13,913 bases of DNA, taken from an uncultured Anaerolineaceae bacterium (GTDB taxonomy: Bacteria > Chloroflexota > Anaerolineae > Promineifilales > Promineifilaceae). Position numbers and translations under genes: made by a program. Under the pieces are notes generated by a model that searched no databases, was not told where the DNA came from, and saw only the letters and a program-made list of their open reading frames with translations. The stretch lies in NCBI GenBank assembly GCA_937967805.1, contig CALBTC010000410.1, positions 1 to 13,913 on the forward strand, read 5' to 3'. Within the stretch, counting starts at the first letter, position 1. Every line of letters begins with the position of its first letter. This document shows, one piece after another, positions 657 to 13,698 of this stretch.

Positions 657-717
657 GATCTTCTTTCTCCTAGAATTTTTGTGAATGTTGGGTAAACGGC
701 CGTTCTTAAAAACCAAG

Positions 718-1074
718 CTACCCTCGCAGAATCTTCGCCATCGCCTTACCCCTGGCCAGCTCATCAACCAGTTTGTCCAGATACCGTATTTTTTGCATCA
801 GCGGGTCTTCGATTTCTTCCACGCGGACGCCGCACACGACCCCCTTGATCAGCGCACGATTCGGATGCATGGCGGGGGCTTGGGCAAAAAAGGTTTCAAA
901 ATCGTTTTGCTCTTCGATTTGCTGCTGTAATCCTGCCTGGTCATATCCGGTCAACCAGTAAATGATCTGGTCAACTTCTTCTTTCGTGCGATTTTTGCGT
1001 TCCGCTTTTTGAACATAATGTGGATAAACGCCTGCAAATGATGTGGTAAAGATCCGATGTTTAGGTATTGTCAT
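718..1074 (-). CDS. DUF2200 family protein
   Basis: A 118-residue protein that I recognise as DUF2200. Characteristic stretches are [20 protein letters not shown] (residues 6-25), a WLTGYD element (40-45), DFETFF (58-63), then [20 protein letters not shown] (about 79-98) and a C-terminal [16 protein letters not shown] helix. Length matches the family. No biochemical role is established; it is probably a small cytosolic helical protein. The start is unusual: the Shine-Dalgarno GGAGGA (1080-1075) directly abuts the ATG at 1074 with no spacer, and the upstream acetyltransferase stop codon is only 7 bases away. Translation therefore probably depends on reinitiation or coupling. Confidence 0.88.
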
Positions 1075-1081
1075 TCCTCCG

Positions 1082-1657
1082 TTAGGTTGAGACCCGAATC
1101 GTCTTTCTCATGATACAGTGATTTTTCCCTTTTTCACCTTCATAACTGAAGCCAGCTTTTTCAAAGATTTCCCTTGTTCCATTGTATAAAAACGAATTTG
1201 ATGCTTTTTTACCTTGCGTATCCTGGGGATAACTTTCCACAATCCCACCGCCTGAATTTTTGATGAGTTCTAAAGCGCCATTCAGGGCCACAAAGGATAA
1301 ACCACGCTTGCGATAATCTCTATCCACGAAAAAGCAGGTAATTCTCCAGTCGGGCATTGTCATTTTGGATTCCACTTCTTTTTTGTGGTAAATGTTTGGC
1401 AGTTCTTGAGGGGAGCCAAATTGACACCAGGCAACGCAGTTATCGCCATCAAAGACCAGGGCCGCATGTGCGCACTCTGTTTCCACAAGCTTCTTTTTAT
1501 AAGATTTCGTGGCTTCCGCGCTCCCCTTATGCTCTGGAGACTTGGGATGAAAAGCTGTGCACCAGCATCCTCCCCAGACGCCATTATGCTTTTGCGCCAG
1601 GCGCTCAAACGCCGGCCAGGTTTCACTACTCAGCGGTTTTATGGATAAATTCTGCAT
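1082..1657 (-). CDS. GNAT family N-acetyltransferase
   Basis: A 191-residue acetyltransferase of the GNAT superfamily, transferring acetyl from acetyl-CoA to an unknown amine. The acetyl-CoA binding motif is at about residues 108-120 ([13 protein letters not shown]), with the R-x-x-R/K-x-G/A-type pyrophosphate loop in a slightly degenerate form (YRKRGL). The N-terminal [11 protein letters not shown] stretch (28-38) is typical of a subgroup of stand-alone GNATs of unknown substrate. The C-terminal [11 protein letters not shown] (165-175) is the usual beta-turn segment. AGGAGGA lies 5-6 bases before the ATG at 1657. It follows the second DinB gene after 14 bases and precedes DUF2200 by 7, so it is within an operon. 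The substrate cannot be inferred. Confidence 0.85.
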
Positions 1658-1671
1658 ATTTCCTCCTGACG

Positions 1672-2133
1672 CTAAATCTCAACCCCAGGCAGGCCAGCCG
1701 CACCCAACAGCAGCGATAGTTCCCCGGCGTGAGGCAGGTCGTGATCGAGGAGCCCCCAAATTGTCTGCACGATTTCTGTTTCCTGCGCGGTTAGATCGTC
1801 GGTGGGGGAGCCGCCCATCAGGCAGTCGGCGATGAACTGCCAGGTCAGGTCCAGCCCTTGCACAATTTCGACGGCCGTGTGCGGTGGGTTGTCGGCGTCG
1901 TCCCAGCGGAGCAGTGGCGTTAATTCAGCCGCCCGCTCACCCAGCGTGCGCTGCAAATGCAGGGCTCGCCCAAAGACGATATGTTCGGCGATTTCTCCAG
2001 GCGAGCGCAGACCGGGTAGGAGCCGCCGCCGCAGTTGTTCCTCGGTGAGCGGCGCGATGGCCCGCTTGAGAGCGTCCTGGTAATCTTGCCAACTGGCGAA
2101 GGCGCGTGCTTCCGCGACTGCTGCTCTTATCAT
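1672..2133 (-). CDS. DinB-like four-helix metalloenzyme (second copy)
   Basis: A 153-residue protein with the DinB/YfiT layout: a helical bundle with His51 (in EIAEHIVFGR) and the H-x-x-x-H pair His131/His135 in LLDHDLPHAGELS. These are the likely three metal ligands. Members of the superfamily include thiol-S-transferases and many uncharacterised metalloproteins. I chose the ATG at 2133 rather than that at 2145 because its ATG overlaps the TGA of the upstream DinB gene as ATGA, the classic translational coupling arrangement, and GAGG lies 4 bases upstream. It shares the leftward operon with another DinB protein but is clearly divergent from it. Confidence 0.75.
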   Translation of the reverse strand: MIRAAVAEARAFASWQDYQDALKRAIAPLTEEQLRRRLLPGLRSPGEIAEHIVFGRALHLQRTLGERAAELTPLLRWDDADNPPHTAVEIVQGLDLTWQFIADCLMGGSPTDDLTAQETEIVQTIWGLLDHDLPHAGELSLLLGAAGLPGVEI

Positions 2134-2621
2134 ATGCCTCGCCACACCAAATATCCCTCAAAATCCAGCTCCCCTGGTGATTGCCCAAAACCAGTTAACA
2201 TCGCCGCCGCTTCGCTGCGATGATGAGTGCCGTCGTTAATCACGTGCAGTATCGTTTGCCAGCGGGTCCGCCGAATATTTTCCTCTTCGCGCCAGACGGC
2301 GTTTAGCGCGGCATCATCCAGACCGGCAATGTAGGCCAACCAGGCCGCCTCTTCCGCCTGCCAGCGCGCCCGTAAGCTGGCCACATCGGTGAAATCTGCC
2401 TCGCGCAGCACCCCGGCATCCGGCAGGTTTTGCAGGGCGACGCGCCAGCCATATTCAGTGTCCAGCAGATGCACCAACGTGCCGCGCAGGCTGTGCCAGC
2501 CGGGGTCGGGCGTTACCGGTCGGGTGAAATCGGCCGGGGATATGCGCTCGCAGGCGTTTAAGATTTCGCTGTCGGCCCAGAAGTTGTAGGCAATCAGGGT
2601 TTCCACATCCTTTTTGTGCAT
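2130..2621 (-). CDS. DinB family protein (first gene of leftward operon)
   Basis: A 163-residue DinB-family protein. Visible features are the N-terminal AYNFWADSEIL helix, His51 in LVHLLDTEYGWR, and the signature HVINDGTHHRSEAAAMLTGF (126-145), followed by SPGELDFEGYL. In most relatives the signature reads N-H-G-T-x-H-R; here residue 130 is Asp, so one metal ligand is Asp instead of His (ligands probably His51, Asp130, His134). Start: AGGAG (2631-2627) is 5 bases from the ATG at 2621; the in-frame GTG at 2627 lies within that site and is discarded. Its TGA overlaps the start of the next gene. Likely substrates are small thiols or xenobiotics, by family only. Confidence 0.82.
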   Translation of the reverse strand: MHKKDVETLIAYNFWADSEILNACERISPADFTRPVTPDPGWHSLRGTLVHLLDTEYGWRVALQNLPDAGVLREADFTDVASLRARWQAEEAAWLAYIAGLDDAALNAVWREEENIRRTRWQTILHVINDGTHHRSEAAAMLTGFGQSPGELDFEGYLVWRGI

Positions 2622-2637
2622 AGACACTCCTGTGTAA

Positions 2638-2656
2638 ATCGAACATCTTGTTCGAT
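2638..2656. promoter_or_regulatory. Operator-like dyad ATCGAAC-N5-GTTCGAT
   Basis: Perfect 7-base arms around ATCTT, 17 bases upstream of the first DinB start codon. The half-site GAAC/GTTC resembles the Gram-positive LexA (SOS) box, but the usual spacing there is four bases and here it is five. It could be an operator or a short leader hairpin. It is placed where a repressor would block the DinB operon. Confidence 0.4.
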
Positions 2657-2657
2657 A

Positions 2658-2676
2658 CCCGATTTGGAAAATCGGG
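2658..2676. repeat. Hairpin CCCGATTT-GGA-AAATCGGG
   Basis: Perfect 8-base arms with a 3-base loop, one base away from the preceding dyad. No T-tract follows on either strand, so it is not a standard terminator. The pair of adjacent hairpins resembles an intergenic REP-type element or a leader structure of the DinB operon. Confidence 0.5.
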
Positions 2677-2735
2677 CAATGGATTTTTGTTTATGATGTT
2701 CAGATTGTGCTCATGTCGTCTACTTTGAAAATAAC

Positions 2736-2786
2736 CTCACGTAAAGGCGCAAAGGCCGTTTTGCGCAGTTGGCGGCCTGGCGTGAG
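2736..2786. repeat. Nested inverted repeat in the gap between DinB and GNAT genes
   Basis: An outer pair CTCACG (2736-2741) / CGTGAG (2781-2786) encloses an inner perfect 7-base hairpin GCGCAAA (2747-2753) / TTTGCGC (2760-2766) with loop GGCCGT. The AAAGGCGCAAAGG-like wording looks like a remnant of a dispersed intergenic repeat. The surrounding gap 2622-2875 has no gene I can support. Confidence 0.45.
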
Positions 2787-2875
2787 ATTTGCGTTAGCGG
2801 TGGTGTGAACGCCTGTGTCATTACGGCATATGGTGAGGAATACGGCCGTATCCCCACCCCCAGCCCCCTTTTTGC

Positions 2876-3307
2876 TCACTCATCGGCAATCACGCCATTT
2901 TCAATTGCCTGCGTCTCATTCTGGAAAATTGCCATCGCCGTGATCATGCGCTTGAAGCCAAGTTTTTTGTAAAATGGCTCCTTACCGGCGGCAGCATACA
3001 AAATAATCTTCTTGTGATCCTTTGAGAAATCGACCAGCCTGGAAACAACTTCCTTGCCCAAACCGCGACCCTGGTAGCTGGGATGAACGGCCACGTCACA
3101 AATGTAGGAACAATCTTTGCCGTCGGCCAACGCCCGGCCAGCAGCAATCAGTTGCCCGGCATCATAAACAAAGCACTTAAACATGCTGTTGGAGAAGGCG
3201 ATCTGTAGGTCAGTGGGGTCTTTCTGACCCAATGGCGCTATGAGATAGAGTTTGGAGAGTTCTTCCCAGTTCAGGTTGTCAATTGAATATTTCCATTCAA
3301 ATGTCAT
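2876..3307 (-). CDS. GNAT family N-acetyltransferase
   Basis: A 143-residue GNAT acetyltransferase. The acetyl-CoA motif is classical: DVAVHPSYQGRGLGKEVV (71-88), with Q-G-R-G-L-G at 79-84 forming the pyrophosphate-binding loop. The C-terminal FYKKLGFKRM (112-121) is the conserved segment of small GNATs. GGAGA lies about 6 bases upstream of the ATG at 3307. It is separated by about 254 bases from the DinB operon and is divergent from the oxidase gene at 3499, so it probably has its own promoter in 3308-3370. The acceptor is unknown. Confidence 0.88.
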   Translation of the reverse strand: MTFEWKYSIDNLNWEELSKLYLIAPLGQKDPTDLQIAFSNSMFKCFVYDAGQLIAAGRALADGKDCSYICDVAVHPSYQGRGLGKEVVSRLVDFSKDHKKIILYAAAGKEPFYKKLGFKRMITAMAIFQNETQAIENGVIADE

Positions 3308-3328
3308 CTGTTTTCTCCATTTGTTTTT

Positions 3329-3372
3329 TACGGCCGTATTTTACACCATTCTGCCCCCAAAACGGCCGTTTT
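3329..3372. promoter_or_regulatory. Paired ACGGCCGT palindromes in a divergent promoter region
   Basis: Two palindromes, TACGGCCGTA (3329-3338) and the 14-base AAAACGGCCGTTTT (3359-3372), have centres 32 bases apart, close to three helical turns. They lie between a leftward GNAT gene and a rightward oxidase gene. The second ends 14 bases before the TTGACA of the rightward promoter. The first overlaps a TAAAAT that could be the -10 of the leftward gene. The motif also recurs inside genes, so the regulatory reading is an inference. Confidence 0.35.
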
Positions 3373-3386
3373 CCTTCCCCAATTCC

Positions 3387-3414
3387 TTGACATTTGCCCA
3401 GTCGGTTATAAACT
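3387..3414 (+). promoter_or_regulatory. Candidate sigma-70-type promoter of the oxidase/transporter operon
   Basis: A perfect TTGACA (3387-3392) is followed after 16 bases by TAAACT (3409-3414), four of six matches to the -10 consensus; TATAAA at 3407-3412 is a better hexamer but only 14 bases away. The leader would be about 80 bases. Confidence 0.45.
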
Positions 3415-3498
3415 TCCCCATCTTTTTTAACAATTTGGATGAGAACTGTTTTTGGCCCTGAGAAAACCAGCTTTGTCAATCATTGTGGAGATTAAACA

Positions 3499-4680
3499 GT
3501 GCAGAAACCGGTGAAGAAACGAACGTTTCAATACCTGGTATTAGGCCTGGGGGGCATCGGGAGCGCGGCTGCGTATTGGCTGGCACGACAGGCCGGCAAT
3601 GATGTCCTGGGGCTGGAGCAGTTTCCCCTGGGCCACCTGCGGGGCGGCTCGCAAGACCATTCTCGCATCATCCGGCTTTCTTACCACAACCCCTTTTATG
3701 TAAACTTTGCCAAAGCAGCCTACCGCGCCTGGGCCGCTGTTGAAGCAGATTCGGGCGAACAGCTTGTCTTCAAAACCGGCGGTCTCGATCTGTCACCGGC
3801 CGGTTCCTGCCTGCCCCTTTCTGACTATGCGAATAGCTTAGCCACCTGCGACATACCGTTTGAACTGCTGGATGCCGCCGAAATTATGCATCGCTGGCCC
3901 CAGTGGCGCTTGCCAGCGCATGTGTGTGGACTGTACCAGGCCGAGAGCGGGTTGGTAGCTGCCGCCAAAAGTAACGCTGCTCACCAACGACTGGCCAAAG
4001 AATACGGCGCGATTTTGCAGGACAATTGCCCAGTTACGGCCGTTTACCCCGCCCACAATGAAATCACCGTCGTCGCCGGCGATGAAACCTACACCTGTGA
4101 AAAGCTGGTCATTGCCGGCGGCGCCTTGAGCAACAAGGTGCTGGCCCATTTTGGCACCCAGATCAACCTCCCCGTCACGCAAGAGCAGGTAACCTACTAC
4201 GCTTCGCCCCACCCGGCCGATTTTGCCCCGGAACGGTTCCCCATTTGGATTTGGCTGGATGAGCCATGTTTTTACGGCTTCCCGGCGTTTGGCGAAGCCG
4301 GTCCCAAGATTGCCCAGGACGTGGGCGGGCCGGAAGTCACGGCCGAATCCCGCACGTTTGCGGTGGATACGGCCGCTTTCCACCGCACCGACACCTTTTT
4401 ACGCCAACATCTACCCACGGCCCACGGCCCCGTCATCGCCACCAAGACCTGCCTCTACACCATGCCGCCGGACCGTGATTTTGTGCTGGACACCCTGCCG
4501 GAACATCCAAACGTCGCCATAGCCGTAGGGGCGGGCCACGCCTTTAAGTTTGCCTCGCTGCTGGGCAAAATTTTGAGCCAGCTAGCCGTTGCCGGGAAAT
4601 CTGATTACGACTTGACCCCCTTCCAAATCAGTCGCCCCATTCTCTTCGCTGAAAATCCGGTGAAGGAATTTATGGTGTAA
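3499..4680 (+). CDS. FAD-dependent amine oxidase, monomeric sarcosine / N-methyltryptophan oxidase family
   Basis: A 393-residue flavoenzyme that oxidises a secondary (N-methyl) amino acid to imine with release of H2O2. The Rossmann motif GLGGIG is at 16-21 with the ribose-binding acid at Glu40. SRIIRLSY (55-62) matches the flavin-cover segment T/S-R-I-I-R of monomeric sarcosine oxidase. FYGFPAFGEAGPK (258-270) ends in Lys270, which aligns by eye with the oxygen-activating Lys265. KTCLYT (316-321) holds Cys318, matching the cysteine that links FAD covalently. GAGHAFKFAS (344-353) and a closing QISRP are also family hallmarks. Start is GTG at 3499 with TGGAG eight bases upstream. It precedes the uptake genes by 64 bases, suggesting that the imported substrate is oxidised here. 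Whether the substrate is sarcosine, N-methyltryptophan or another amine cannot be decided. Confidence 0.88.
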   Translation: MQKPVKKRTFQYLVLGLGGIGSAAAYWLARQAGNDVLGLEQFPLGHLRGGSQDHSRIIRLSYHNPFYVNFAKAAYRAWAAVEADSGEQLVFKTGGLDLSPAGSCLPLSDYANSLATCDIPFELLDAAEIMHRWPQWRLPAHVCGLYQAESGLVAAAKSNAAHQRLAKEYGAILQDNCPVTAVYPAHNEITVVAGDETYTCEKLVIAGGALSNKVLAHFGTQINLPVTQEQVTYYASPHPADFAPERFPIWIWLDEPCFYGFPAFGEAGPKIAQDVGGPEVTAESRTFAVDTAAFHRTDTFLRQHLPTAHGPVIATKTCLYTMPPDRDFVLDTLPEHPNVAIAVGAGHAFKFASLLGKILSQLAVAGKSDYDLTPFQISRPILFAENPVKEFMV

Positions 4681-4690
4681 GTCTAAGATT

Positions 4691-4713
4691 GGTCCAATTT
4701 TAAAAATTGAACC
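4691..4713. promoter_or_regulatory. 23-base imperfect palindrome between oxidase and binding-protein genes
   Basis: GGTcCAATTTT, one central A, then AAAATTGaACC: ten of eleven positions pair. It lies in the 64-base gap, 20 bases before the ribosome binding site of the lipoprotein gene. With a one-base centre it is better as a protein-binding operator than as an RNA hairpin; it has no T-tract of terminator length. Confidence 0.35.
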
Positions 4714-4744
4714 ATCTAACAAAGTTCGTTAAAGGAGAAGAAAG

Positions 4745-6481
4745 ATGAAAAAGAATGTTGTTTTTAGACTGTGGTTGTTTTTATTGATAGCCGGTTTGCT
4801 GGTGGCCTGTGGCGGCACAGAAGGCACCACCGACACCGCCGACGAGACGACTTCAGAAACCGCGGGCGAACAGCCGGACGCCGAAGAAGTAGCCGATGAG
4901 ACAGCCGCGGAGGAGACAGCCGATGAACGGAAGATTGCCACTTTTATCTTTACCCAGGAATTTGACACCCTGAGCCCGCTTTATACCAGTATGTGGTTCA
5001 CCACTATTACCTACCAGTTTTGGGAAGTATGGGCCTGGCACTTTGACGAAAACAACGAGCCATTCCCCGTTTTGCTCACCGAAATGCCCACTGTGGAGAA
5101 TGGCGGCATCTCCGAAGACGGCACCGTCTTAACCTTCAACCTGCGCGACGATATTGTCTGGTCTGATGGCACCCCCATCACCTCGGCCGATTTCATTTTT
5201 ACCTATGAAATGGTTGTAGATCCCAACAACATTGTCACCTCCACCTACCCCTACGACCAGATTGCCACGGCCGAAGCCCCGGATGAGCGTACGGTGATTT
5301 TGACCTTTGATGAGCCGTTTGTTCCCTGGCAGGCAACCCTGTGGCATGGCATCCTGCCGCAGCACGTCCTGGGTCCGGTCTATGAAGCCGATGGCACCCT
5401 GGACAACGCCGAATGGAACCTGGCCCCCACCGTTGGCGCTGGTCCCTACGTCTTTGCCGAATGGGAGTCCGGCAGCTTTGCTCGCTTCGTGGCCAACGAA
5501 AATTATTGGGGCCCCGCGCCAAATATTGACGAAATCTTCGTTCGCTTTGTACCGGACGACGCGTCGCAAATTGCCGCGCTGCAAACCGGTGATGGCGATC
5601 TGGGCACATTTATTGCCTACTCAGACATTCCCGCGCTTGAAGAAGCCGGCGTGCAAATCCTTTCCGTACCGTCTGGGTTTAATGAAGGCTGGTTTTTTTA
5701 CTTTGGTGATGATGCCGCACCGGGGCATCCGGCCGTTCAAGATGTGCGCGTGCGCCAGGCAATCGCCATGGCCATTGATCGGCAGACGATTACCCAGGAT
5801 TTACTGCTGGGCTTAACCGAGCCGGCGGCCACGTTGTGGGACAACATGCCTTACGTAGACCCGTCCATCGAACCGTGGCCTTACGATCCAGAAGCGGCCA
5901 ATGCCCTGCTTGACGAAGCCGGCTGGATCGACAGCAACGGCGATGGCGTCCGTGATAAAGACGGGGTTGAATTGATACTGTCGCACGGCACTACCATTCG
6001 CGAGATTCGCCAGGATATGCAGGCTGTAGCCCAACAGCAGCTGGCCGAAGTGGGTATTCAGTTAGATATCGTCAGCTATGATGCCGACATCTTCTTTGGC
6101 GGGCTGGCCGACGGCGGTCCGGCCGCCAGCGGCGAACTGGACATTTTCGAATGGTCGGACGGGCCAGCCTATCCCGATCCCGATCATTACTACTGGTATT
6201 GCAGTGAAATCCCCAGCGAAGAAAATCCCGACGGCGGCAACTGGCAGCGCCTGTGCGATGAGCGGTTGGACGACCTGTTCACGCGGCAAACCACCCAGAT
6301 CAATTTTGAAGACCGGCAGCAAACATTCTATGAGATTACCAACATCATGTTCAACGAGGTGATCTGGCTGGGTATCTGGCAAGACCCGGATATTTGGGCC
6401 CTGAGCCCTAACCTTACAGGTGTGAAAATGTCTGGTGCAACGCCATTCTTCAACATTGCCGAATGGGATTTGAGCGAATAG
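4745..6481 (+). CDS. ABC transporter substrate-binding lipoprotein, family 5 (peptide/opine/nickel type)
   Basis: A 578-residue extracytoplasmic binding protein. The signal peptide has KK, a hydrophobic core (about 6-20) and the lipobox L-V-A-C with Cys22 as lipidation site. Residues 23-62 are a Thr/Glu/Asp/Ala-rich tether. The mature domain shows family-5 (SBP_bac_5) features: LTFNLRDDIVWSDGTPIT (129-146) with SADFIFTYEMV, VGAGPYVFAEWE (230-241), ENYWGPAP (252-259) and VRQAIAMAIDRQTI (336-349). A D-S-N-G-D-G-V-R-D-K-D-G loop near 396-407 is a possible calcium site. AAGGAG sits 7 bases before the ATG. It delivers ligand to the two permeases downstream. Family members bind oligopeptides, dipeptides, opines, glycosides or metals; pairing with an N-methyl-amine oxidase suggests an amine or short peptide ligand. 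Confidence 0.9.
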   Translation: MKKNVVFRLWLFLLIAGLLVACGGTEGTTDTADETTSETAGEQPDAEEVADETAAEETADERKIATFIFTQEFDTLSPLYTSMWFTTITYQFWEVWAWHFDENNEPFPVLLTEMPTVENGGISEDGTVLTFNLRDDIVWSDGTPITSADFIFTYEMVVDPNNIVTSTYPYDQIATAEAPDERTVILTFDEPFVPWQATLWHGILPQHVLGPVYEADGTLDNAEWNLAPTVGAGPYVFAEWESGSFARFVANENYWGPAPNIDEIFVRFVPDDASQIAALQTGDGDLGTFIAYSDIPALEEAGVQILSVPSGFNEGWFFYFGDDAAPGHPAVQDVRVRQAIAMAIDRQTITQDLLLGLTEPAATLWDNMPYVDPSIEPWPYDPEAANALLDEAGWIDSNGDGVRDKDGVELILSHGTTIREIRQDMQAVAQQQLAEVGIQLDIVSYDADIFFGGLADGGPAASGELDIFEWSDGPAYPDPDHYYWYCSEIPSEENPDGGNWQRLCDERLDDLFTRQTTQINFEDRQQTFYEITNIMFNEVIWLGIWQDPDIWALSPNLTGVKMSGATPFFNIAEWDLSE

Positions 6482-6609
6482 GAAGGAGTTTATGGGGTTT
6501 TGAATGAAGCGTGATGCGTGGAACGTGAAACGTGATTGGTTTTTTCACGCATCACGTTTCACGTTTCACGGGCCTGTCAACCTCCTGAATTCCCAAAGAG
6601 CCAACAGTT
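6482..6609. repeat. Hairpin-forming TTTCACG-type repeat between binding protein and permease
   Basis: This 128-base gap holds two overlapping inverted repeats: CGTGATGCGTG (6510-6520) / CACGCATCACG (6546-6556), and AACGTGAAACGTGAT (6522-6536) / ATCACGTTTCACGTT (6551-6565). The right arms overlap, so only one hairpin can form at a time. The units CGTGAAA/TTTCACG are iterated, allowing register shifts. It resembles a dispersed intergenic repeat. Just before it, AAGGAG (6483-6488) and ATG (6492) open a frame that stops after three codons. A hairpin here could favour high binding-protein and lower permease levels by protecting the upstream mRNA end. Confidence 0.7.
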
Positions 6610-7644
6610 ATGAGTCGATATATTATTCGCCGGCTGCTGCAAGCCATTCCTTTGCTGTTCATTATTAGCGTCGTCCTTTTTATATTGATGCAAAATATGG
6701 GCGATCCGCTGGCGACGATGGGCGGCCGTCGGGCAACGCGGCCCGATGATCGGGCGCGGCTAACGCGGCAGTTGGGGCTGGATCAACCCATTTACCTGCA
6801 ATATGTTTACTGGCTGGTGGGGAATGATTGGTCCAGTTTCGATGTGGATGGCGACGGCGTGGCCGAAACGCCGGGCCATCGTCAAGGCGTGCTGCGCGGC
6901 GACTTTGGCACCTCGTTGGTCAACCGGGGCAAACCGGTTTTGGAAGTGATTTGGGACAGGGTGCCAAACACGCTGATCTTGATGGTGGCGGCGGAGGTGG
7001 TCATTATTGTGTTCGCCTTGTTAATTGGTGTGTATTCGGCGCTGCGTCAGTACTCTTTGCTTGATCATGTGATAACGGCCGTTTCTTTCATCGGCTACTC
7101 AATGCCCATCTTCTTTATAGCCCTGCTCTCCATCTACATCTTTTCCGTCAATTTCCAGCGTTGGGGACTGCCCCACTTGCCGTCAGTGGGCATGTTCGAT
7201 CCCAAAGTAGGCAAAACCACCGGACAGGTGCTGTTGCATTTAATCCTGCCTGTATTAAGCCTGGCCATCATCAGTACGGCCGCATACAGCCGTTACATCC
7301 GCAGCACCATGTTAGAAGTGATGAGCCAGGATTATATTCGCACCGCCAAAGCCAAAGGATTAAAAAGGCGAACCATCATCTTAGTCCATGCTCTGAAAAA
7401 CGCTTCGCTGCCCATCGTCACCGTGGTTGGTCTAGACATTCCCTTTTTGCTGGGCGGCGCCGTGGTGACAGAGCGCATCTTTGCCTGGCCGGGCATGGGC
7501 CGCCTTTTTCTAGACCACGTCTCGCGCAATGACGTGCCTGTCGTCATGGGCATCCTCATGCTTTTATCCATAGCCGTCATCGTCTTCCAGATTTTGACCG
7601 ATATCACCTACGCTGTTTTAGACCCGCGTATCCGTTACGAGTAA
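6610..7644 (+). CDS. ABC transporter permease, DppB/OppB type
   Basis: A 344-residue inner-membrane permease, first of the pair. The N-terminus YIIRRLLQAIPLLFIISVV is the typical first membrane segment of this subfamily; further segments lie near 120-141, 155-180, 205-225, 265-290 and 311-333, giving six. The EAA loop that docks the ATPase is at about 241-262 (DYIRTAKAKGLKRRTI), and the end VLDPRIRYE is the family terminus. The periplasmic loop before GDFGTSL carries D-V-D-G-D-G-V-A-E (78-86), a calcium-binding-like loop that enteric homologues lack. No strong ribosome binding site precedes the ATG (AAAGAG at 6595-6600 is the best), in contrast to the gene before it. Confidence 0.92.
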   Translation: MSRYIIRRLLQAIPLLFIISVVLFILMQNMGDPLATMGGRRATRPDDRARLTRQLGLDQPIYLQYVYWLVGNDWSSFDVDGDGVAETPGHRQGVLRGDFGTSLVNRGKPVLEVIWDRVPNTLILMVAAEVVIIVFALLIGVYSALRQYSLLDHVITAVSFIGYSMPIFFIALLSIYIFSVNFQRWGLPHLPSVGMFDPKVGKTTGQVLLHLILPVLSLAIISTAAYSRYIRSTMLEVMSQDYIRTAKAKGLKRRTIILVHALKNASLPIVTVVGLDIPFLLGGAVVTERIFAWPGMGRLFLDHVSRNDVPVVMGILMLLSIAVIVFQILTDITYAVLDPRIRYE

Positions 7645-7653
7645 GGCCGCCTT

Positions 7654-8607
7654 ATGAGCAGTGTCGAACCTTCTGTGGCAACCCTGAAATTAGGGGCCGA
7701 TGATTTGGGAGCCCCCCCTTTAACCTTGGGGCAGATGACCTGGCGGCGCTTTCGCCGGCACAAGATGGCGTTGGCCGGCGCCGTGGTTATTGTCTTGCTT
7801 TTTGTTTATGCCTTCGGTGGTGCATTGCTCTACAGTGAAGCCGATGCCAATTTTACCGACACGGGACTGCGCCTGACCGGTCCTACGGCCGCCCATCCCT
7901 TTGGCACAGATACGGTCGGCCGCGATATTTTGATCCGCACCATTTATGGTGGCCAGATTTCTTTGTTGATTGGGTTAACGGCCGTTATTCTAGAAACGAT
8001 CATCGGGGTGCTGATCGGTGCCCTGGCCGGCTACTACGGCGGCAAAATTGATACCATCCTCATGCGTTTTACCGAAGCCGCCCTGAACATCCCCCAGCTA
8101 TTTCTCTTGATCGTCATGGCCAAATTTTTCGGCGGCGCCATCCCCGACGTGACCGTATTGGGGCGCACCTTCAGCGGCAGCGTTGTCGTCATAATTCTCA
8201 TTATCGGCCTCACCAGCTGGATGTACCTGGCCCGCATCGTCCGCGCCGAATTCCTTTCCGTAAAGGAGAATGAATTTATCCTGGCGGCCAGAGCTATCGG
8301 CACCCCCAATTGGGAGATCATCTTCAAACATATTCTGCCCAACAGCATCGCTCCCATCGTCGTTTCGGCAACGCTGGGTGTGGCCAATGCCATTCTTGCC
8401 GAAGCATACATTAGCTTCTTGGGGCTAGGCGTACAACCGCCCACGGCCACCTGGGGCAACATGCTCGATGGCTCTTACAACTACATCAAAACGGCTCCCT
8501 GGCTGTGGATTTTCCCCGGCTTGCTCATCGTGTTAACCGTCCTCAGCATCAATTTTGTGGGCGATGGCCTGCGCGACGCACTAGACCCGCGGAGTCGAGC
8601 AGCGTGA
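7654..8607 (+). CDS. ABC transporter permease, DppC/OppC type
   Basis: A 317-residue second permease. A cytosolic N-terminal region (1-37) ends in the conserved RRFRRHKMAL, followed by the first membrane segment (about 38-58), the periplasmic HPFGTDTVGRDI motif (81-92), and five more segments. The EAA loop is at 207-229 (EFILAARAIGTPNWEIIF). AYISFLGLGVQPPTATWG (251-268) and the closing GLRDALDPR are diagnostic. It starts 9 bases after the first permease with only AAGG as a weak site, so translation is probably coupled. It is the last gene of the operon; the ATPase genes that commonly follow are absent. Confidence 0.93.
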   Translation: MSSVEPSVATLKLGADDLGAPPLTLGQMTWRRFRRHKMALAGAVVIVLLFVYAFGGALLYSEADANFTDTGLRLTGPTAAHPFGTDTVGRDILIRTIYGGQISLLIGLTAVILETIIGVLIGALAGYYGGKIDTILMRFTEAALNIPQLFLLIVMAKFFGGAIPDVTVLGRTFSGSVVVIILIIGLTSWMYLARIVRAEFLSVKENEFILAARAIGTPNWEIIFKHILPNSIAPIVVSATLGVANAILAEAYISFLGLGVQPPTATWGNMLDGSYNYIKTAPWLWIFPGLLIVLTVLSINFVGDGLRDALDPRSRAA

Positions 8608-8663
8608 CGGCAAGTTAGGTCCAATTATTTTATCCCTCATGAAACCATCCCAAAACAAAATCC

Positions 8664-8697
8664 TCTCAGTTCGTTGAGATGTGGCTGCTATTGCCAC
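8664..8697. other. Two short hairpins downstream of the permease operon
   Basis: TCTCA-N6-TGAGA (8664-8679) and GTGGC-N7-GCCAC (8681-8697) are adjacent. Neither is followed by a T-tract, so a factor-independent terminator is not supported, although they sit where the transport operon should end. The rest of 8608-8739 shows nothing else. Confidence 0.25.
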
Positions 8698-8739
8698 TGT
8701 CCATACCTCCTAATTTCTCAGGAATAAAGCCCGTTGCGG

Positions 8740-8745
8740 TATAAT
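8740..8745 (+). promoter_or_regulatory. Candidate -10 box TATAAT upstream of the kinase cluster
   Basis: A perfect TATAAT follows TTGCGG. No good -35 hexamer is found at 16-18 bases, so an activator or another sigma factor would be required. A start about 8752 would give a leader of roughly 130 bases containing the upstream ORF at 8799. Confidence 0.35.
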
Positions 8746-8798
8746 CTTTGCTACATTCTAAAATGCAACTATGCAGATGGTCCGGGCGGAGAGTCTAA

Positions 8799-8930
8799 AT
8801 GGATGCTCTCAAATTTAATTATTTGCGTCGGGCCGACAGTACCCATTATGCATTCCTGTCAGGAAGGGCACGTTTACCAGGATTATGGACCAATCAAACC
8901 GCTCAACCAGTGAGTTATTTGAAGAACTAA
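8799..8930 (+). CDS. 43-codon upstream ORF overlapping the kinase start
   Basis: A short open frame beginning MDALKFNYLRRADSTHYAF and ending at TAA 8928-8930. It has a better initiation signal than the kinase itself: GGAGAG (8788-8793), five bases, ATG. It overlaps the first 46 bases of the kinase gene in another frame. GAGAG (8789-8793) can pair with CTCTC (8806-8810), placing the ATG in the loop, which could hide the ribosome binding site. No homology is recognised. It could be a coupling or leader peptide controlling kinase synthesis, or chance. Confidence 0.35.
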   Translation: MDALKFNYLRRADSTHYAFLSGRARLPGLWTNQTAQPVSYLKN

Positions 8931-10690
8931 ACCGTCTGCGAGCAGCGTTGGCCAGGGCGCAGGCGGAAGTTCAGCAGCTAACTGAACAAAATCATCAGCT
9001 GCAGACGGAGCTGGAAGTTTTTCAGTCTCTGGAAGTTCAAAACAGATCGGGCGAGTTGTCAACGGCCGTTTCAGCCAATCCAGACTTCGCCGAGCTGGCC
9101 CAACAACTGCGCAAGGCAGCCATTATTTCCCAAAAGCTCAATACCATTCGCAAACCGGACAAGCTGCTTACCGAAGCGATTTCGCTGATGCGGGCCAGCT
9201 TCAATTTGTACCATGTTCATATTTACCTTTTGGACAAAGAGGAAGAGGTTTTACGCGTGCACATCGGTTCGGGGCGTGTGGGGAAGCAGTTGCTAGAAAA
9301 AGAACACACGATTGCGCTTACGGCCATTAAAAGCCTGGTGGCGCTGGCTGCACGCCAACAAGAAATGGTCCTGGTACACGATGTAGAACAGCATCCCACC
9401 TTTTTAGCCAACCCGCTGCTGCCTAAAACAAAGTCGGAGCTGGCGATTCCTTTGCTGTACGGCCGTTCCCTCCTCGGCGTGTTAGATATTCAAGACAGCC
9501 AACCCAACCGATTTGGACCGGCCGAAGTAGATGCCATGCTTGTCCTGGCCGGGCACATTGCCATCGCCTTGCAAAATGCCCGTCTCTTTACCGAACGTGA
9601 TCAAATTCAAAGAGAACTATTTTACCAGGCCAACCTGCTGCAAAATGTCTCCGATGCCGTCATTGCCACCAACAACGAGTTTCGCATTCAGAGCTGGAAC
9701 AAAGCTGCTGAAACGATCTATGGTTGGCGGGAAGAGGAGGTATTAGGCAAAACCATGAGTGAACTGATGACCATAGTCTATCAGCAAGACAGTCGGGAAG
9801 AAGTGATGGCTGATTTTCTGTCTAAAGGGCATTGGCAGGGAAGAGTAACCCAAAACCGTAAAGATGGCACGCTTATCCCGGTGTTGTCTTCGGTTACGGC
9901 CGTTAAAGATCAGCACGGCGCCGTTATCGGCGCCGTTGCCGTCAACCGAGATATTTCTGACCAGCTAGAGATAGAAGAAGCATTACGAGAACGAACCCGC
10001 TCTCTGGAAGCCAGCAATGAAGATTTGGCCCAATTTGCCTACGCTGCCTCCCACGATCTGCAAGAACCACTGCGTATGATCACGTCTTATCTTCAACTAA
10101 TCGCCCAGCGACACCAGGATCAACTAGACGAAGAAGCCAACGAATTTATTGGCTACGCCATTGATGGTGCCAGGCGAATGCGGCAGCTAATTGTCGACCT
10201 GTTGGCTTACTCACGCATCGGGCAGCAAAATCAGGGGATTGGGCAAGTCGATTTGGAAAAAATATTGCAGCAGGTCCTATTTAATCTAGAAGTGCAAATT
10301 CAAGAAGCCAACATTACCATTACCCATGATCCATTGCCGACCATCACCGCAGACAAGACACAAATGCTGCAATTGCTGCAAAACCTAATCAGTAATGCCA
10401 TCAAATTTAGGAGCGAAGCATCACCAAAAATACACGTTTCGGCCACACAAGATCCGTCAAACTGGATGATCCAGGTTACAGATAATGGGATTGGTATGGA
10501 ACGGGAACTAACGAAAAAAATCTTCGCTATTTTCCAGCGTCTCCATACACGTGAAGAATACCCCGGCACCGGCATTGGCCTGGCAATCTGCAAAAAAATT
10601 GTGCAAAAGCATAAAGGAGAAATTTGGGTAGATTCAGAACCTGGCAGTGGTTCGACATTTTCATTTTCTATTCCCAAAAACTTAACATAA
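8885..10690 (+). CDS. GAF-PAS sensor histidine kinase
   Basis: A 601-residue soluble sensor kinase; no membrane segment is visible. Order: Gln/Glu-rich coiled coil (about 8-50), GAF domain (about 80-235, ending HIAIALQNARLF), PAS with PAC motif (about 245-360, DAVIATNNEFRIQSWNKAAE then VAVNRDISDQ), linker coil, HisKA with His390 in ASHDLQEPLRM, and HATPase_c with N-box Asn500/Asn504, G1 DNGIG (533-537) and G2 GTGIGLA (561-567). The SHDLQEPLRM phosphoacceptor box is typical of phytochrome-like kinases, but this GAF domain has no cysteine for a bilin, so it probably binds another small ligand or none. The only site before the ATG is AGGA two bases away. Likely phosphorylates the receiver domains encoded downstream. 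Confidence 0.9.
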   Translation: MDQSNRSTSELFEELNRLRAALARAQAEVQQLTEQNHQLQTELEVFQSLEVQNRSGELSTAVSANPDFAELAQQLRKAAIISQKLNTIRKPDKLLTEAISLMRASFNLYHVHIYLLDKEEEVLRVHIGSGRVGKQLLEKEHTIALTAIKSLVALAARQQEMVLVHDVEQHPTFLANPLLPKTKSELAIPLLYGRSLLGVLDIQDSQPNRFGPAEVDAMLVLAGHIAIALQNARLFTERDQIQRELFYQANLLQNVSDAVIATNNEFRIQSWNKAAETIYGWREEEVLGKTMSELMTIVYQQDSREEVMADFLSKGHWQGRVTQNRKDGTLIPVLSSVTAVKDQHGAVIGAVAVNRDISDQLEIEEALRERTRSLEASNEDLAQFAYAASHDLQEPLRMITSYLQLIAQRHQDQLDEEANEFIGYAIDGARRMRQLIVDLLAYSRIGQQNQGIGQVDLEKILQQVLFNLEVQIQEANITITHDPLPTITADKTQMLQLLQNLISNAIKFRSEASPKIHVSATQDPSNWMIQVTDNGIGMERELTKKIFAIFQRLHTREEYPGTGIGLAICKKIVQKHKGEIWVDSEPGSGSTFSFSIPKNLT

Positions 10691-10721
10691 TTAGTAGAAA
10701 GCCCTCAAGGTGCCATTTGTC

Positions 10722-10727
10722 TTGACA
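10722..10727 (+). promoter_or_regulatory. Isolated -35-like TTGACA downstream of first kinase
   Basis: A perfect TTGACA lies in the 143-base gap before the second signalling gene, but the hexamer 17 bases downstream (TAACTA) is poor and CATAAT is only 12 bases away. Weak evidence for an internal promoter. Confidence 0.2.
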
Positions 10728-10758
10728 GATTTTAAGAAACATAATAACTAGACTTGTC

Positions 10759-10778
10759 ATTCCCGCGAAGGCGGGAAT
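10759..10778. repeat. dRS3-like repeat ATTCCC-N8-GGGAAT
   Basis: Perfect 8-base arms ATTCCCGC / GCGGGAAT around GAAG, within TCATTCCCGCGAAGGCGGGA. The core exactly fits ATTCCC-N8-GGGAAT, the pattern called dRS3 in Neisseria, where it is a target of filamentous phage and Piv-type recombinases. Similar sequences are common between genes in many bacteria. Here it would be in the leader of the second signalling gene. Confidence 0.7.
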
Positions 10779-10833
10779 CCATTAAATTTCGACGAGGTAC
10801 TCCTGAGTGCCTGTCTTTACGTAACTATAAATA

Positions 10834-11973
10834 ATGAATGACAACAAGATAAACGTATTGTTGATTGAAGATAATCCAGGTGATGTTCGGCTGGTTAAAG
10901 AGATGTTGTATCAGGCCTCTTTTTTAGATAATCCATCATCGGTTATAGAGTTTGCCCATGCCGGCCGGCTGCAAGCTGCCCTCGCTCATTTAAAAAAACA
11001 CACCTGTGATGTTATTCTGCTGGATTTATCTTTACCAGATGCCACTGGCCTGGATTCGATCCTGAAGCTAAAAGAAAATCACCCTTCTACACCCATCATT
11101 ATTTTGAGCGGTCAGGCGGTTAATCAAACGGTTGTAGAAGCAGTACAGCATGGGGCACAAGATTATTTAGCCAAGAACGATTTAACCGCCAACTTATTGC
11201 TCAAAACAATTCATTACACAATAGAACGGCATCGCTTGCTGTTAGAAATCAAAGGGCGTGCAGAAGAGCTGGAGAGCCAAAATATAGCGCTCAACGACTT
11301 TGCCCACACGGTAGCGCATCAAATTCAAGGCCTGCTCAGCCAAATGGTTGGCTATGCCAGTCTGGTCGATTCCCACTACCAGGATCAGCTTAGCGAACCG
11401 GCCAGCCAGGCGATTGACCAGATCATGCAAAGTGGCTACAAGATGAACAATATCATTACAGAACTGCTCTTCCTGGCCAGTATGCGTTCTGAAGAAATAC
11501 AGGTGAATGAGCTGGATACCGGCCGTATTGTCGCCGAAGTTATGAAACGTTTGCGCTATCAAATTCGAGAAACTGGGGCCAAGATTCACCTACCAAAGGC
11601 ATGGCCGGTCGCGCTGGGATACGCCCCCTGGATTGAGGAAGTGTGGCTTAACTATATGAGCAACGGCTTGAAGTATGGTGGTGACGAGAATACACCACCC
11701 ATTTTGCATCTGGGTGCTACCCGAGAAAGCAACGGGATGATCCGTTTTTGGCTGGCAGATAACGGCCCCGGCATCTCCAAGGTAGATCAAAAGCGATTGT
11801 TCAAACCGCACACCAGGGTTACCTCCAAAAAGATTCGCGGCGAGGGTCTGGGGCTATCAATTTGCTGGCGAATTGTCAGCAAATGTGGTGGTGAAGTGGG
11901 GGTAAATAGTAATGAGGGAGCTGGCAGTTGTTTTTGGTTTACGTTGCCAGAAAAAACACGCACGATACCATAA
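10834..11973 (+). CDS. Receiver-histidine kinase hybrid with degenerate phosphoacceptor box
   Basis: A 379-residue cytosolic protein. The receiver domain (about 6-130) has acidic pair Glu12/Asp13, phosphorylatable Asp64 in ILLDLSLPD, Ser92 and Lys114; the opening VLLIEDNPGDVRLVKEML is of the Rcp1 type. A short coil leads to a HisKA-like helix with His162, but the box reads VAHQIQGLL: the acidic residue after His and the Pro five residues later, both normal in this family, are replaced by Gln and Leu. The ATPase domain keeps the N-box Asn273/Asn277, G1 DNGPGI (309-314) and G2 GEGLGLSI (336-343). No Shine-Dalgarno is visible before the ATG; an in-frame stop six bases upstream excludes a longer start. 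Autokinase activity may be reduced or altered. Confidence 0.87.
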   Translation: MNDNKINVLLIEDNPGDVRLVKEMLYQASFLDNPSSVIEFAHAGRLQAALAHLKKHTCDVILLDLSLPDATGLDSILKLKENHPSTPIIILSGQAVNQTVVEAVQHGAQDYLAKNDLTANLLLKTIHYTIERHRLLLEIKGRAEELESQNIALNDFAHTVAHQIQGLLSQMVGYASLVDSHYQDQLSEPASQAIDQIMQSGYKMNNIITELLFLASMRSEEIQVNELDTGRIVAEVMKRLRYQIRETGAKIHLPKAWPVALGYAPWIEEVWLNYMSNGLKYGGDENTPPILHLGATRESNGMIRFWLADNGPGISKVDQKRLFKPHTRVTSKKIRGEGLGLSICWRIVSKCGGEVGVNSNEGAGSCFWFTLPEKTRTIP

Positions 11974-11988
11974 ATTAGGAAAAGTATT

Positions 11989-13698
11989 GTGGTTACTGAC
12001 GCACCAAACGGCCGTAATGTTGACATCTTGCTCGTTGAAGATAATCCCGGCGACATCCGGCGCATTGCCCTGATGCTGGATATGTTGCAGGATACGTACC
12101 GGCTGCATACCGCCAGTTCCGTTAAATCTGCCCACCAAACTCTTTCTAATCAGCCCGTCCAAATTATTCTTCTCGATTTATCCCTCCCAGACAGTGATGG
12201 TTTGCAAACGATTCGCACCATGCACGCCACCTATCCCTGGGTTCCCATTGTGGTTTTAACCGGTCTAGATGATGAGCAGGCAGTGGCTGACGCAGCCACC
12301 GCCGGGGCCCACGACTATCTGGTTAAGCATGATCTCGATCCGGCGAATTTGTGGCGCGTTTTACGCTATGCACAAGAAAGGCGTATTCATGAAGAGCAGC
12401 TGCGCGCCAGCCAAAAGGCGTACAGGCGGCAGGCTCGTGAGCTGAATCTGCTCAATCACATCATCTCTGCCGCCTCAGCCAGTAATGATGAACAATCTAT
12501 TCTGGATGTGACCTGTTCGGAGTTGGCTCAATTTTACGATGCCCTGCGCACCTTGATCCTCCTGCGCCACCATGAAGACTCACTCGTCACGGTCCAGGCA
12601 GAGCACCATCATCCAGAGATGCCCCCTTTGCGCCACAGCCAGATCGATCTGGACATGGAGGAACATTTTGCCGCCGTTCTTTTCACCCAGCAAACCTTAA
12701 TCTGCCCTCATTTAACAGCAAACCTGAAGCTTTTCCTGTCCTCGCCTGAAGATAGCAAAGCAATCATTCATCCGCTCACCCTGGAAGAGGAGAACGTTGG
12801 CTTTTTTGTACTGAATTTGCCACCTTCATACGAGTTGGCCGTAAGCGATGCCCGCCTTTTGGCGATGGTGGCAGAAGAGGTTGAACTTGCTCTGACGAAG
12901 ATTCGTCTGCACGGCCGTTTACAGGCGTACGCCAACGAGCTGGAAGATCGCGTTCAGGAACGCACCCAGGCGCTGGCCGAAGCCAACGAACAGCTCCAAT
13001 CGTTGGATAAGCTAAAATCAAAGTTTGTCTCCGACGTCTCGCACGAATTACGTAACCCCATCACCAATTTATCCCTCTATTTAGAACTGCTAGAATTTGC
13101 CAAACCGGAAAAGCAGCCTAAATATTTCAGCATTCTGCGCAACCAGGTGCGCCGGCTTACCAGCCTTGTCGAAGAGATTTTGACGCTGTCCCGCCTGGAA
13201 AATCAAAGCTATAGCCATTTATACCAGCCTATCGACTTTAACTATCTCATTCAGCAAGTCATTGTGGCCCACAAGCCGCGCGCCCAAAACAACCGGATCA
13301 AACTGCTATTTCACCCTGCCGCGCCCTTGCCGCCGGTGTGGGGTGAACGTAACCAAATCACTCAAATCGTGACAAATTTATTAGACAACGCGCTGAACTA
13401 CACGGCAGAAGGCACCGTCACTGTCTCCACTGAACTGCATGAAAATGATTCAGAAACCGAAATCGTTTTGAATGTTTCTGACACCGGCATCGGCATTCCG
13501 GAGGAGGACCTGCCCCATATTTTTGATCGATTTTATCGCGGATCACAGATCAATCGGGACAAAAATATGGGCACGGGTTTGGGTTTAGGCATTGTTAATG
13601 AGATTGTTGCTTTGCATAACGGCCGTATCAGCGTCAGCAGCACTCCCAACCAGGGTAGCACCTTTACCGTTGTTCTGCCCGCTGCCCCACAAGATTAA
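11989..13698 (+). CDS. Receiver-GAF-like-histidine kinase hybrid
   Basis: A 569-residue cytosolic hybrid kinase. Receiver domain about 10-130 with Glu17/Asp18, Asp63 in ILLDLSLPD, Thr91 and Lys113. A coiled stretch (130-155) leads to a GAF-like sensor region (about 155-305; weak identity, recognised by the ending LLAMVAEEVELALTK). A second coil (310-345) precedes a canonical HisKA box FVSDVSHELRNPITNLSLYL with His352, then HATPase_c with Asn463/Asn467, G1 DTGIGI (498-503) and G2 GTGLGLGI (528-535). Start is GTG at 11989 with AGGA about 8 bases upstream; it follows the previous gene by 15 bases, hence co-transcribed. It is likely both to receive phosphate from a sister kinase and to be an active kinase. 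Confidence 0.88.
   Translation: MVTDAPNGRNVDILLVEDNPGDIRRIALMLDMLQDTYRLHTASSVKSAHQTLSNQPVQIILLDLSLPDSDGLQTIRTMHATYPWVPIVVLTGLDDEQAVADAATAGAHDYLVKHDLDPANLWRVLRYAQERRIHEEQLRASQKAYRRQARELNLLNHIISAASASNDEQSILDVTCSELAQFYDALRTLILLRHHEDSLVTVQAEHHHPEMPPLRHSQIDLDMEEHFAAVLFTQQTLICPHLTANLKLFLSSPEDSKAIIHPLTLEEENVGFFVLNLPPSYELAVSDARLLAMVAEEVELALTKIRLHGRLQAYANELEDRVQERTQALAEANEQLQSLDKLKSKFVSDVSHELRNPITNLSLYLELLEFAKPEKQPKYFSILRNQVRRLTSLVEEILTLSRLENQSYSHLYQPIDFNYLIQQVIVAHKPRAQNNRIKLLFHPAAPLPPVWGERNQITQIVTNLLDNALNYTAEGTVTVSTELHENDSETEIVLNVSDTGIGIPEEDLPHIFDRFYRGSQINRDKNMGTGLGLGIVNEIVALHNGRISVSSTPNQGSTFTVVLPAAPQD

Follow-up and report, generated by a model that had tools for sequence, protein, structure and literature searches.

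A 13,913-nucleotide contig from an uncultured Anaerolineaceae bacterium (CALBTC010000410.1; this whole 13.9-kb stretch is "the window" below) contains 14 exact copies of the 8-base palindrome ACGGCCGT. We found that the same octamer occurs thousands of times per genome in a group of related Chloroflexota, and that its copies are kept at orthologous positions much more often than control octamers. ACGGCCGT is a HIP1-like highly iterated palindrome (HIP). It is a second case of the HIP type, in another phylum and on another core (CGGCCG), with an inferred single gain and with dialects (alternative octamers on the same core). As to its cause, we tentatively favor, at a little under an even chance, a reading in which this clade-wide, positionally retained palindrome would be maintained by a predicted CGGCCG-reading enzyme, namely an orphan DNA methyltransferase together with mismatch repair.

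The original prediction, made from the window alone, put the 14 copies against an expectation of about 0.2. Our recount agrees: the expectation is 0.24 from dinucleotide shuffles (none of 200 shuffles reached 14) or 0.47 from an order-2 Markov model, and the runner-up palindromic octamer has 4 copies. The window's own density is 1.01/kb, and the genome-wide figures that follow come from its relatives.

Distribution of the palindrome and its dialects

A permease search for relatives of the window yielded 80 loci, of which about 65 are labeled as Chloroflexota. A comparable excess was present in just one of the 80, on contig CALEAD010000006.1 of an uncultured Anaerolineae (L050), with 26 copies in 21 kb where 0.58 are expected. 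The genome of this locus (G001) contains 6,316 copies of ACGGCCGT in 4.1 Mb, as compared to 255 copies of the reversed motif. In a sample of 396 genomes from the class of G001, which has more members than these, 21 hold over 1,000 copies. Eighteen of these are what we call enriched, with 2,984-14,867 copies at 0.99-2.1/kb, while the reversed-motif control gives 55-459. G276, G155, and G198 also exceed 1,000 copies but at lower densities (0.51, 0.42, and 0.16/kb). Among the remaining 378 genomes, 366 have at most 300 copies and nine have between 327 and 657. The original prediction had asked for whole-genome counts, and in these relatives they are far above the reversed-motif control; samples of sequence are also far above a Markov model. 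(In a 653-kb sample comprising the window and 19 genomes, G155 and G276 included, we counted 1,008 copies, and 24.8 were expected.)

Ten of the 396 genomes, of 2.2-6.0 Mb, have no ACGGCCGT at all (G024, G056, G128, G159, G246, G252, G323, G336, G359, and G369). This suggests that the same core is avoided elsewhere in the class.

When we searched the 396 genomes with the RpoB protein of G001, 18 of the 21 high-count genomes were among the matches listed, at 73-100% identity, and no enriched genome below 73% identity was among the matches listed. The search gave no match in G355, and G381 and G391 were not among the matches listed. In a tree of 31 RpoB rows, which takes in 16 of the 18 enriched genomes (G355 and G381 are left out), those 16 and five genomes of the Promineifilum group form a clade of 21 rows (support 86/87), with poorly supported branching among the groups within it. 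A state of at least 0.8/kb requires one change on this tree, and a state of at least 0.4/kb requires three, so we infer that ACGGCCGT enrichment was probably gained once, at the 0.8/kb cut. The five Promineifilum-group genomes have 0.10-0.18/kb of ACGGCCGT and form one subclade (support 100/100). The window appears to belong to the same clade, judging by its shared density and by the likeness of its parts.

Some relatives carry other octamers on the same core. G099, which is the sister of G155 in the RpoB tree, has 7,668 copies of TCGGCCGA in 5.1 Mb and just 85 of ACGGCCGT; in 120 kb of this genome, TCGGCCGA is at 25.7 times expectation and all other NCGGCCGN forms are at 0.8 times or less. 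In G185, GCGGCCGC is at 40.3 times expectation, with 87 copies in a 59-kb sample (as opposed to genome-wide). Three distinct octamers (ACGGCCGT, TCGGCCGA, and GCGGCCGC) thus share a single RpoB clade, which spans 27 rows of the tree. In three further genomes the bare hexamer CGGCCG is in excess (7.4 times in G155, 7.1 times in G276, and 3.7 times in G198), and G276 also has ACGGCCGT at 29 times expectation. G349, with 2,070 copies of TCGGCCGA and 657 of ACGGCCGT in 6.6 Mb, is another genome with raised counts of the CGGCCG type.

The Promineifilum group looks like a lineage in which an ancestral element is decaying. At positions where enriched genomes have a site, its genomes have 7% intact and 39% one-off forms (363 comparisons), versus 13% and 30% for controls. 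The commonest states are GCGGCCGT (50), ACGGCCGC (37), ACGGCCGT itself (24), CCGGCCGT (17), and ACGGCCGG (16), and in these commonest altered forms the outer base alone has changed. The core CGGCCG is kept at 164 of 367 sites, which is a modest excess over other occurrences of CGGCCG (193 of 543); hexamers of the same composition are kept at 999 of 4,031. G302, in which none of 67 sites is intact or one-off, argues against simple shared ancestry, and so does G099, whose failure to keep the core at such positions is described below.

Sharp edges, retention, and the imprint on proteins

The enriched unit is the octamer. ACGGCCGT is the most over-represented octamer (41.6 times expectation) among those with at least 60 counts, and the next four overlap it. 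In the 653-kb sample, forms that differ from it by one base exceed expectation solely at the outermost base (3.83, 2.08, and 1.2 times), while inner one-off forms are at 0.39-0.99 times. The excess extends to intergenic DNA (1.02/kb, with an observed/expected ratio of 52.3) as well as coding DNA (1.70/kb, ratio 40.9), and in the pooled relatives copies occur in all three coding phases.

Upstream of the octamer the flanks favor A and then G, and downstream T and then C (for G, 0.51 at -4 and 0.455 at -3). There is also a skew of G over C on the 5' side of the octamer and of C over G on the 3' side, which fades over about 35 bp (e.g. L191-L193, L196-L198); other palindromes show less of it or none, and [TG]CGGCCGT shows it in part. 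Such a skew could come from repair that is strand-asymmetric or from a preference in binding. We rejected a hairpin or extended inverted repeat: the complementarity of the flanks of coding copies at distance 4 is 0.36, close to the 0.35 that independent base preferences give (a hand calculation). Even spacing was rejected as well, as the distances between copies are exponential, with a coefficient of variation of 1.01. Close neighbors are scarce, with 13 gaps of 8-24 bp where about 40 are expected (a hand-worked exponential; Poisson P ~5e-7). In 865 kb pooled from enriched genomes, several palindromes are depleted (GAGCTC 0.08, GGGCCC 0.09, CCTAGG 0.11, CCCGGG and ACGCGT 0.14), a pattern as under restriction avoidance.

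Sites are retained by position. In alignments of homologous DNA, with octamers of the same composition as controls, G228 and G361 (86% DNA identity) share 89 of 99 sites but 513 of 1,318 controls, and G228 and G248 share 71 of 78 sites but 519 of 943 controls. The other comparisons at 86-90% identity gave 90 of 98 and 77 of 86 (controls across all four, 0.39-0.55). At about 75% identity, 34 of 59, 34 of 42, and 28 of 47 sites were kept, as against 0.15-0.16 of controls; the first two of these are G228-G343 (controls 119 of 771) and its reverse, G343-G228 (controls 119 of 761). Sites opposite gaps were excluded (1 of 100, 2 of 100, and 1 of 60 in three comparisons and none in the others). The conservation stops at the octamer. 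From the first base beyond the site, the identity of the flanks is at or slightly below baseline, which does not support a functional footprint of more than eight bases. Intermediates are rare: in the rpoB region of 15 enriched genomes, orthologous sites are 65% identical and 3% one-off, versus 13% and 25% for controls (1,387 comparisons, which are not independent; related genomes enter the pooled alignments repeatedly). Lost sites have at least three differences more often than controls do (e.g. 13 of 25 versus 230 of 652, which are small numbers).

Retention goes beyond what the encoded amino acids demand, which was another check that the original prediction called for. In gap-free, coding-like windows of the G228-G361 comparison, codons with an unchanged amino acid kept their third base in 142 of 146 cases inside sites, as compared to 7,969 of 10,987 outside. 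For the more distant G228-G343 comparison the counts are 40 of 51 inside and 2,701 of 5,024 outside. In favor of codon or tripeptide usage or base composition as the explanation, most sites read Thr-Ala-Val or x-Gly-Arg. Nevertheless, synonymous shuffling within genes leaves 152.9 copies (standard deviation 11.1, maximum 172 of 20 shuffles) where 1,252 are observed, and nearly all such tripeptides are spelled by the octamer itself: 639 of 661 for Thr-Ala-Val and 444 of 513 for [Tyr/His/Asn/Asp]-Gly-Arg. The intergenic ratio of 52 and the third-base retention also speak against it. We rejected this explanation, which we consider next to impossible. The original prediction had likewise held codon preference to be insufficient, and its proposed refutation by Thr-Ala-Val and Gly-Arg codon use, when run on the relatives, did not refute it.

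The proteome follows the octamer dialect of its genome. Per 10,000 residues, Thr-Ala-Val occurs 27.4 times in enriched genomes, 4.3 times in the Promineifilum group, and 2.0 times in 26 stretches from other genomes, so a short DNA mark imposes amino-acid choices on the proteome. Similarly, Ser-Ala-Glu occurs 20.0 times per 10,000 residues in G099 versus 2.5 in other genomes, and Ala-Ala-Ala 36.8 times in G185 versus 10.7 in other genomes.

Likeness to known systems and candidate drivers

In the text available to us of Elhai 2015 (PMC4390886), HIP1 (GCGATCGC) of cyanobacteria is an octameric palindrome with about one copy per kb, a CGATCG core, and a weaker outer pair; related genomes have an alternative octamer on the same core, TCGATCGA, and one-off forms are concentrated at positions 1 and 8. 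As far as that description goes, ACGGCCGT shares with HIP1 its octameric and palindromic form, its genome-wide spread, a hexamer core, alternative octamers, and one-off forms at the outer positions, and the original prediction's label of HIP1-like is well supported by the density, by the palindromic core with its weaker outer pair, and by the octamers of relatives. A HIP-type density (0.5-2.5/kb of a palindromic octamer genome-wide) is found in 18 of the 396 genomes, and ACGGCCGT also has the HIP-type traits of being the top octamer and having its excess of one-off forms at the outermost base. It is not HIP1 proper, as the sequence is ACGGCCGT instead of GCGATCGC and the related loci are mostly from Chloroflexota. 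It also differs from HIP1 in its CGGCCG core, in the three octamers within one RpoB clade, and in that we did not find a cognate methyltransferase among the families searched (PF00145 and PF01555). The same portions of PMC4390886 describe alternate cyanobacterial HIPs (GGCGCC, rCCGGy, GCsGC, and GGGATCCC) at about 500-2,500 copies/Mb in single genomes and report them as sporadic; unlike these, ACGGCCGT marks a clade, for which the 0.8/kb cut implies just one change.

Several type II restriction sites share the core with ACGGCCGT, namely those of EagI (CGGCCG), EaeI (YGGCCR), and NotI (GCGGCCGC, which is the octamer of G185). Host genomes usually avoid restriction sites, whereas the octamers here are about 25-45 times over-represented in well-sampled genomes. 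Chi-type recombination signals are oriented and strand-biased; ACGGCCGT is a palindrome and hence has no orientation. As for Chloroflexi methylation, the motifs that Hiraoka 2019 (PMC6329791) reports, in the part available, are GANTC, TTAA, and GCWGC. Among the open-licence PMC papers that our searches listed, none has a title on the ACGGCCGT element.

The hard eight-base edges, the core with a changeable outer pair, the retention with rare intermediates, and the dialects together point to one sequence-reading protein, and because this anatomy equals that of HIP1 (core and outer pair, near-copies at outer positions, alternative octamers), we favor a HIP-type mechanism. One protein would read the CGGCCG core, and shifts in its preference for the outer bases would give rise to the alternative octamers. 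Its action, which might be methylation-guided repair or else selection for its binding, would restore damaged sites and capture near-matches. As proposed for HIP1, the predicted reader would be an orphan DNA methyltransferase working with mismatch repair. A bolder version, which we think rather doubtful, is that a single CGGCCG reader, with an outer-pair preference that changed between lineages, installed in each of them thousands of copies of ACGGCCGT, TCGGCCGA, or GCGGCCGC, each excluding the other two, and so rewrote the proteome; the octamer would then act as a lineage identity code whose dialect could be read from tripeptides (Thr-Ala-Val, Ser-Ala-Glu, or Ala-Ala-Ala).

The best candidate among amino-methyltransferases is a permuted enzyme of G361, a 674-amino-acid member of PF01555, which is weakly related to the DUF1156 antiphage family (far below the cut-off) and has no relative in PDB by sequence. 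Of the 20 genomes whose octamer is sharp, 19 carry it (17 of the 18 ACGGCCGT genomes, G099, and G185). Five of the copies are incomplete: those of G208, G371, and G099 are in pieces, that of G310 is partial, and that of G376 has one internal stop. DPPY is present in every one of the 30 copies that we examined and the GGGT motif in 29 (G366 lacks GGGT as written). We did not find the candidate in G155, G276, G198, G302, G349, or G331. As far as we know, most of these genomes are metagenome-assembled, so the absence of a gene is weak evidence. Members of PF01555 are common in these genomes but variable, and no orthologue is specific to the element. Near methyltransferase genes of enriched genomes, the density of ACGGCCGT dips mildly (175 copies versus 233 expected, 42 loci).

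A number of results weigh against a methyltransferase acting with mismatch repair. We found no methyltransferase of the right specificity in the families PF00145 and PF01555. Searches for PF00145 (5-methylcytosine methyltransferases) gave no match in 9 of the 21 high-count genomes (8 of the 18 enriched ones), which does not support this family as a requirement. We did not find the candidate from G361 in G137, a genome with 6,514 sites; it is present in all five Promineifilum-group genomes, where the full element is missing, and in another 24 genomes with low ACGGCCGT counts; 17 of 19 such low-count carriers (sampled at 3.7-20 kb each) have no CGGCCG excess above 1.5 times, the exceptions being G218 (3.37 times) and G267 (1.8 times); and in its tree, which was quick and is weakly resolved, the enriched genomes fall into two groups, with other genomes in between. 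Its presence without the element, its absence in G137, and its tree argue against it as the sole driver. A search of 30 genomes detected MutL in 29, which suits the model, but it is there whether or not a genome has the element. The exponential spacing is another difficulty, as a repair model that saturates with density would suggest evened spacing. Of 53 positions that hold a site in enriched genomes, G099 keeps the core at none, and G001, although enriched, lacks both of the window sites that could be compared (7075 and 7978). Finally, the A/T outer pair is not predicted by the published GmeC model.

Instead of an enzyme, an abundant dimeric protein associated with the chromosome or with transcription might bind the octamer, so that selection keeps the sites and another outer pair reflects an altered receptor specificity. 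The strong site-by-site conservation, the similar enrichment in coding and intergenic DNA, the G-rich 5' and C-rich 3' flanks, and the shortage of neighbors within 25 bp, which would suit a footprint, all fit this idea. We nevertheless consider it unlikely. The conservation ends sharply at the eighth base, unlike in a graded binding motif; spacing is random apart from the close-neighbor shortage; and 3,000-15,000 identical sites per genome come with a visible amino-acid cost and are more than architectural proteins are known to need. Alternatively, ACGGCCGT could be a self-recognition sequence for DNA uptake that spread by biased transformation or recombination, with dialects as in Neisseriaceae. 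Described DNA uptake sequences and uptake signal sequences are oriented and non-palindromic, whereas ACGGCCGT is an exact palindrome and lacks a graded excess of inner one-mismatch forms. The absence of grading is a weak test, since sequences of other kinds can show the feature too: what is available of Bakkali 2007 ascribes a graded excess of mismatched forms to uptake sequences and similar distributions to other frequent oligonucleotides. In its favor, uptake would account for the thousands of copies, the dialects on a fixed core, and the imprint on proteins; uptake sequences have thousands of copies and dialects around a constant core too, according to the accessible part of Frye 2013 (PMC3630211). 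ComEC is present in 29 of 30 genomes searched, but equally so in relatives without the element, and one-off states are depleted at orthologous sites, so we view uptake as a poor prospect. Pure mutational drive, in which biased mutation or repair creates the octamer and existing sites are not maintained, was raised in the original prediction. It is consistent with copies in all coding phases and in intergenic DNA and with the asymmetric spectrum of near-copies. This part of the prediction does not hold up well, because biased gain leaves the rate of loss unchanged and sites are lost far more slowly than neighboring or same-composition sequence; we consider it improbable. The other mechanisms that the original prediction named, a methyltransferase or repair process and a dedicated binding protein, fare better.

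What HIP1 signifies has been an open question ever since it was described in 1995 (cited in the available text of PMC4390886). With sister lineages that carry other octamers, a diffuse hexamer, or what look like relics, the HIP question can be tested by comparison: G099 and G155 should have different drivers, as should the enriched genomes and the Promineifilum group.

Copies and other features in the window

Ten of the 14 copies in the window are coding, with six in phase 0 (all reading Thr-Ala-Val) and four in phase 1 (Tyr, Asn, or His followed by Gly-Arg), and one of the ten (at 1871) is in a minus-strand gene. Three copies are intergenic (2842, 3330, and 3362). The copy at 696 is a fourth if the small minus-strand open reading frame (ORF) begins at the ATG (659), and it lies inside the frame if the upstream TTG is the start. 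Pfam assigns the DinB-like, oxidoreductase, and histidine kinase genes that bear copies to unrelated families; the two ABC permease ORFs were named by likeness. This bears out the original description of copies in unrelated genes of both strands, in two frames, and between genes. The near-copies it mentioned are present too, mostly with an altered outermost base: ACGGCCGC four times and ACGGCCGA and ACGGCCGG twice each, as compared to once each for AAGGCCGT, ACCGCCGT, ACAGCCGT, and ACGGCCAT.

Exact copies of ACGGCCGT in the window, with their settings
Copy	Position	Location	Remark
1	696..703	upstream of small minus-strand ORF	intergenic if ORF start is 659
2	1871..1878	minus-strand DinB-like ORF 1672-2145	phase 0, Thr-Ala-Val
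3	2842..2849	intergenic	
4	3330..3337	intergenic	32 bp ahead of copy 5
5	3362..3369	intergenic	
6	4036..4043	FAD-dependent oxidoreductase gene 3499-4680	phase 0, Thr-Ala-Val
7	7075..7082	permease-like ORF 6610-7644	phase 0, Thr-Ala-Val
8	7978..7985	permease-like ORF 7654-8607	phase 0, Thr-Ala-Val
9	9062..9069	histidine kinase gene 8885-10690	phase 0, Thr-Ala-Val
10	9459..9466	histidine kinase gene 8885-10690	phase 1, Tyr-Gly-Arg
11	9896..9903	histidine kinase gene 8885-10690	phase 0, Thr-Ala-Val
12	12008..12015	ORF 11989-13698	phase 1, Asn-Gly-Arg
13	12911..12918	ORF 11989-13698	phase 1, His-Gly-Arg
14	13619..13626	ORF 11989-13698	phase 1, Asn-Gly-Arg

We compared two window copies with relatives position by position. 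At the position orthologous to copy 7075, ACGGCCGT is present in G391, G355, G386, G002, and G003 and absent in G302, G331, G366, G005, G198, G001, and G004. For copy 7978, ACGGCCGT is present in G391, G366, and G355; G005 and G003 have ACGGCCGC, G198 has GCGGCCGC, and G302, G331, G001, G002, and G004 have other sequences.

Two other features of the window have matches in the relatives. The intergenic segment 6484-6606 matches many places in several enriched genomes (about 71-88% identity over 55-125 bp) and has a strong hairpin fold (z -5.6), as a clade-wide interspersed hairpin repeat; similar repeats are present in L207. The segment 314-679, with a small gene, matches places in G361, G248, and G185 at 88-92% identity, where other long matches to the window are at about 64-84%, and a recent transfer of this gene is possible.

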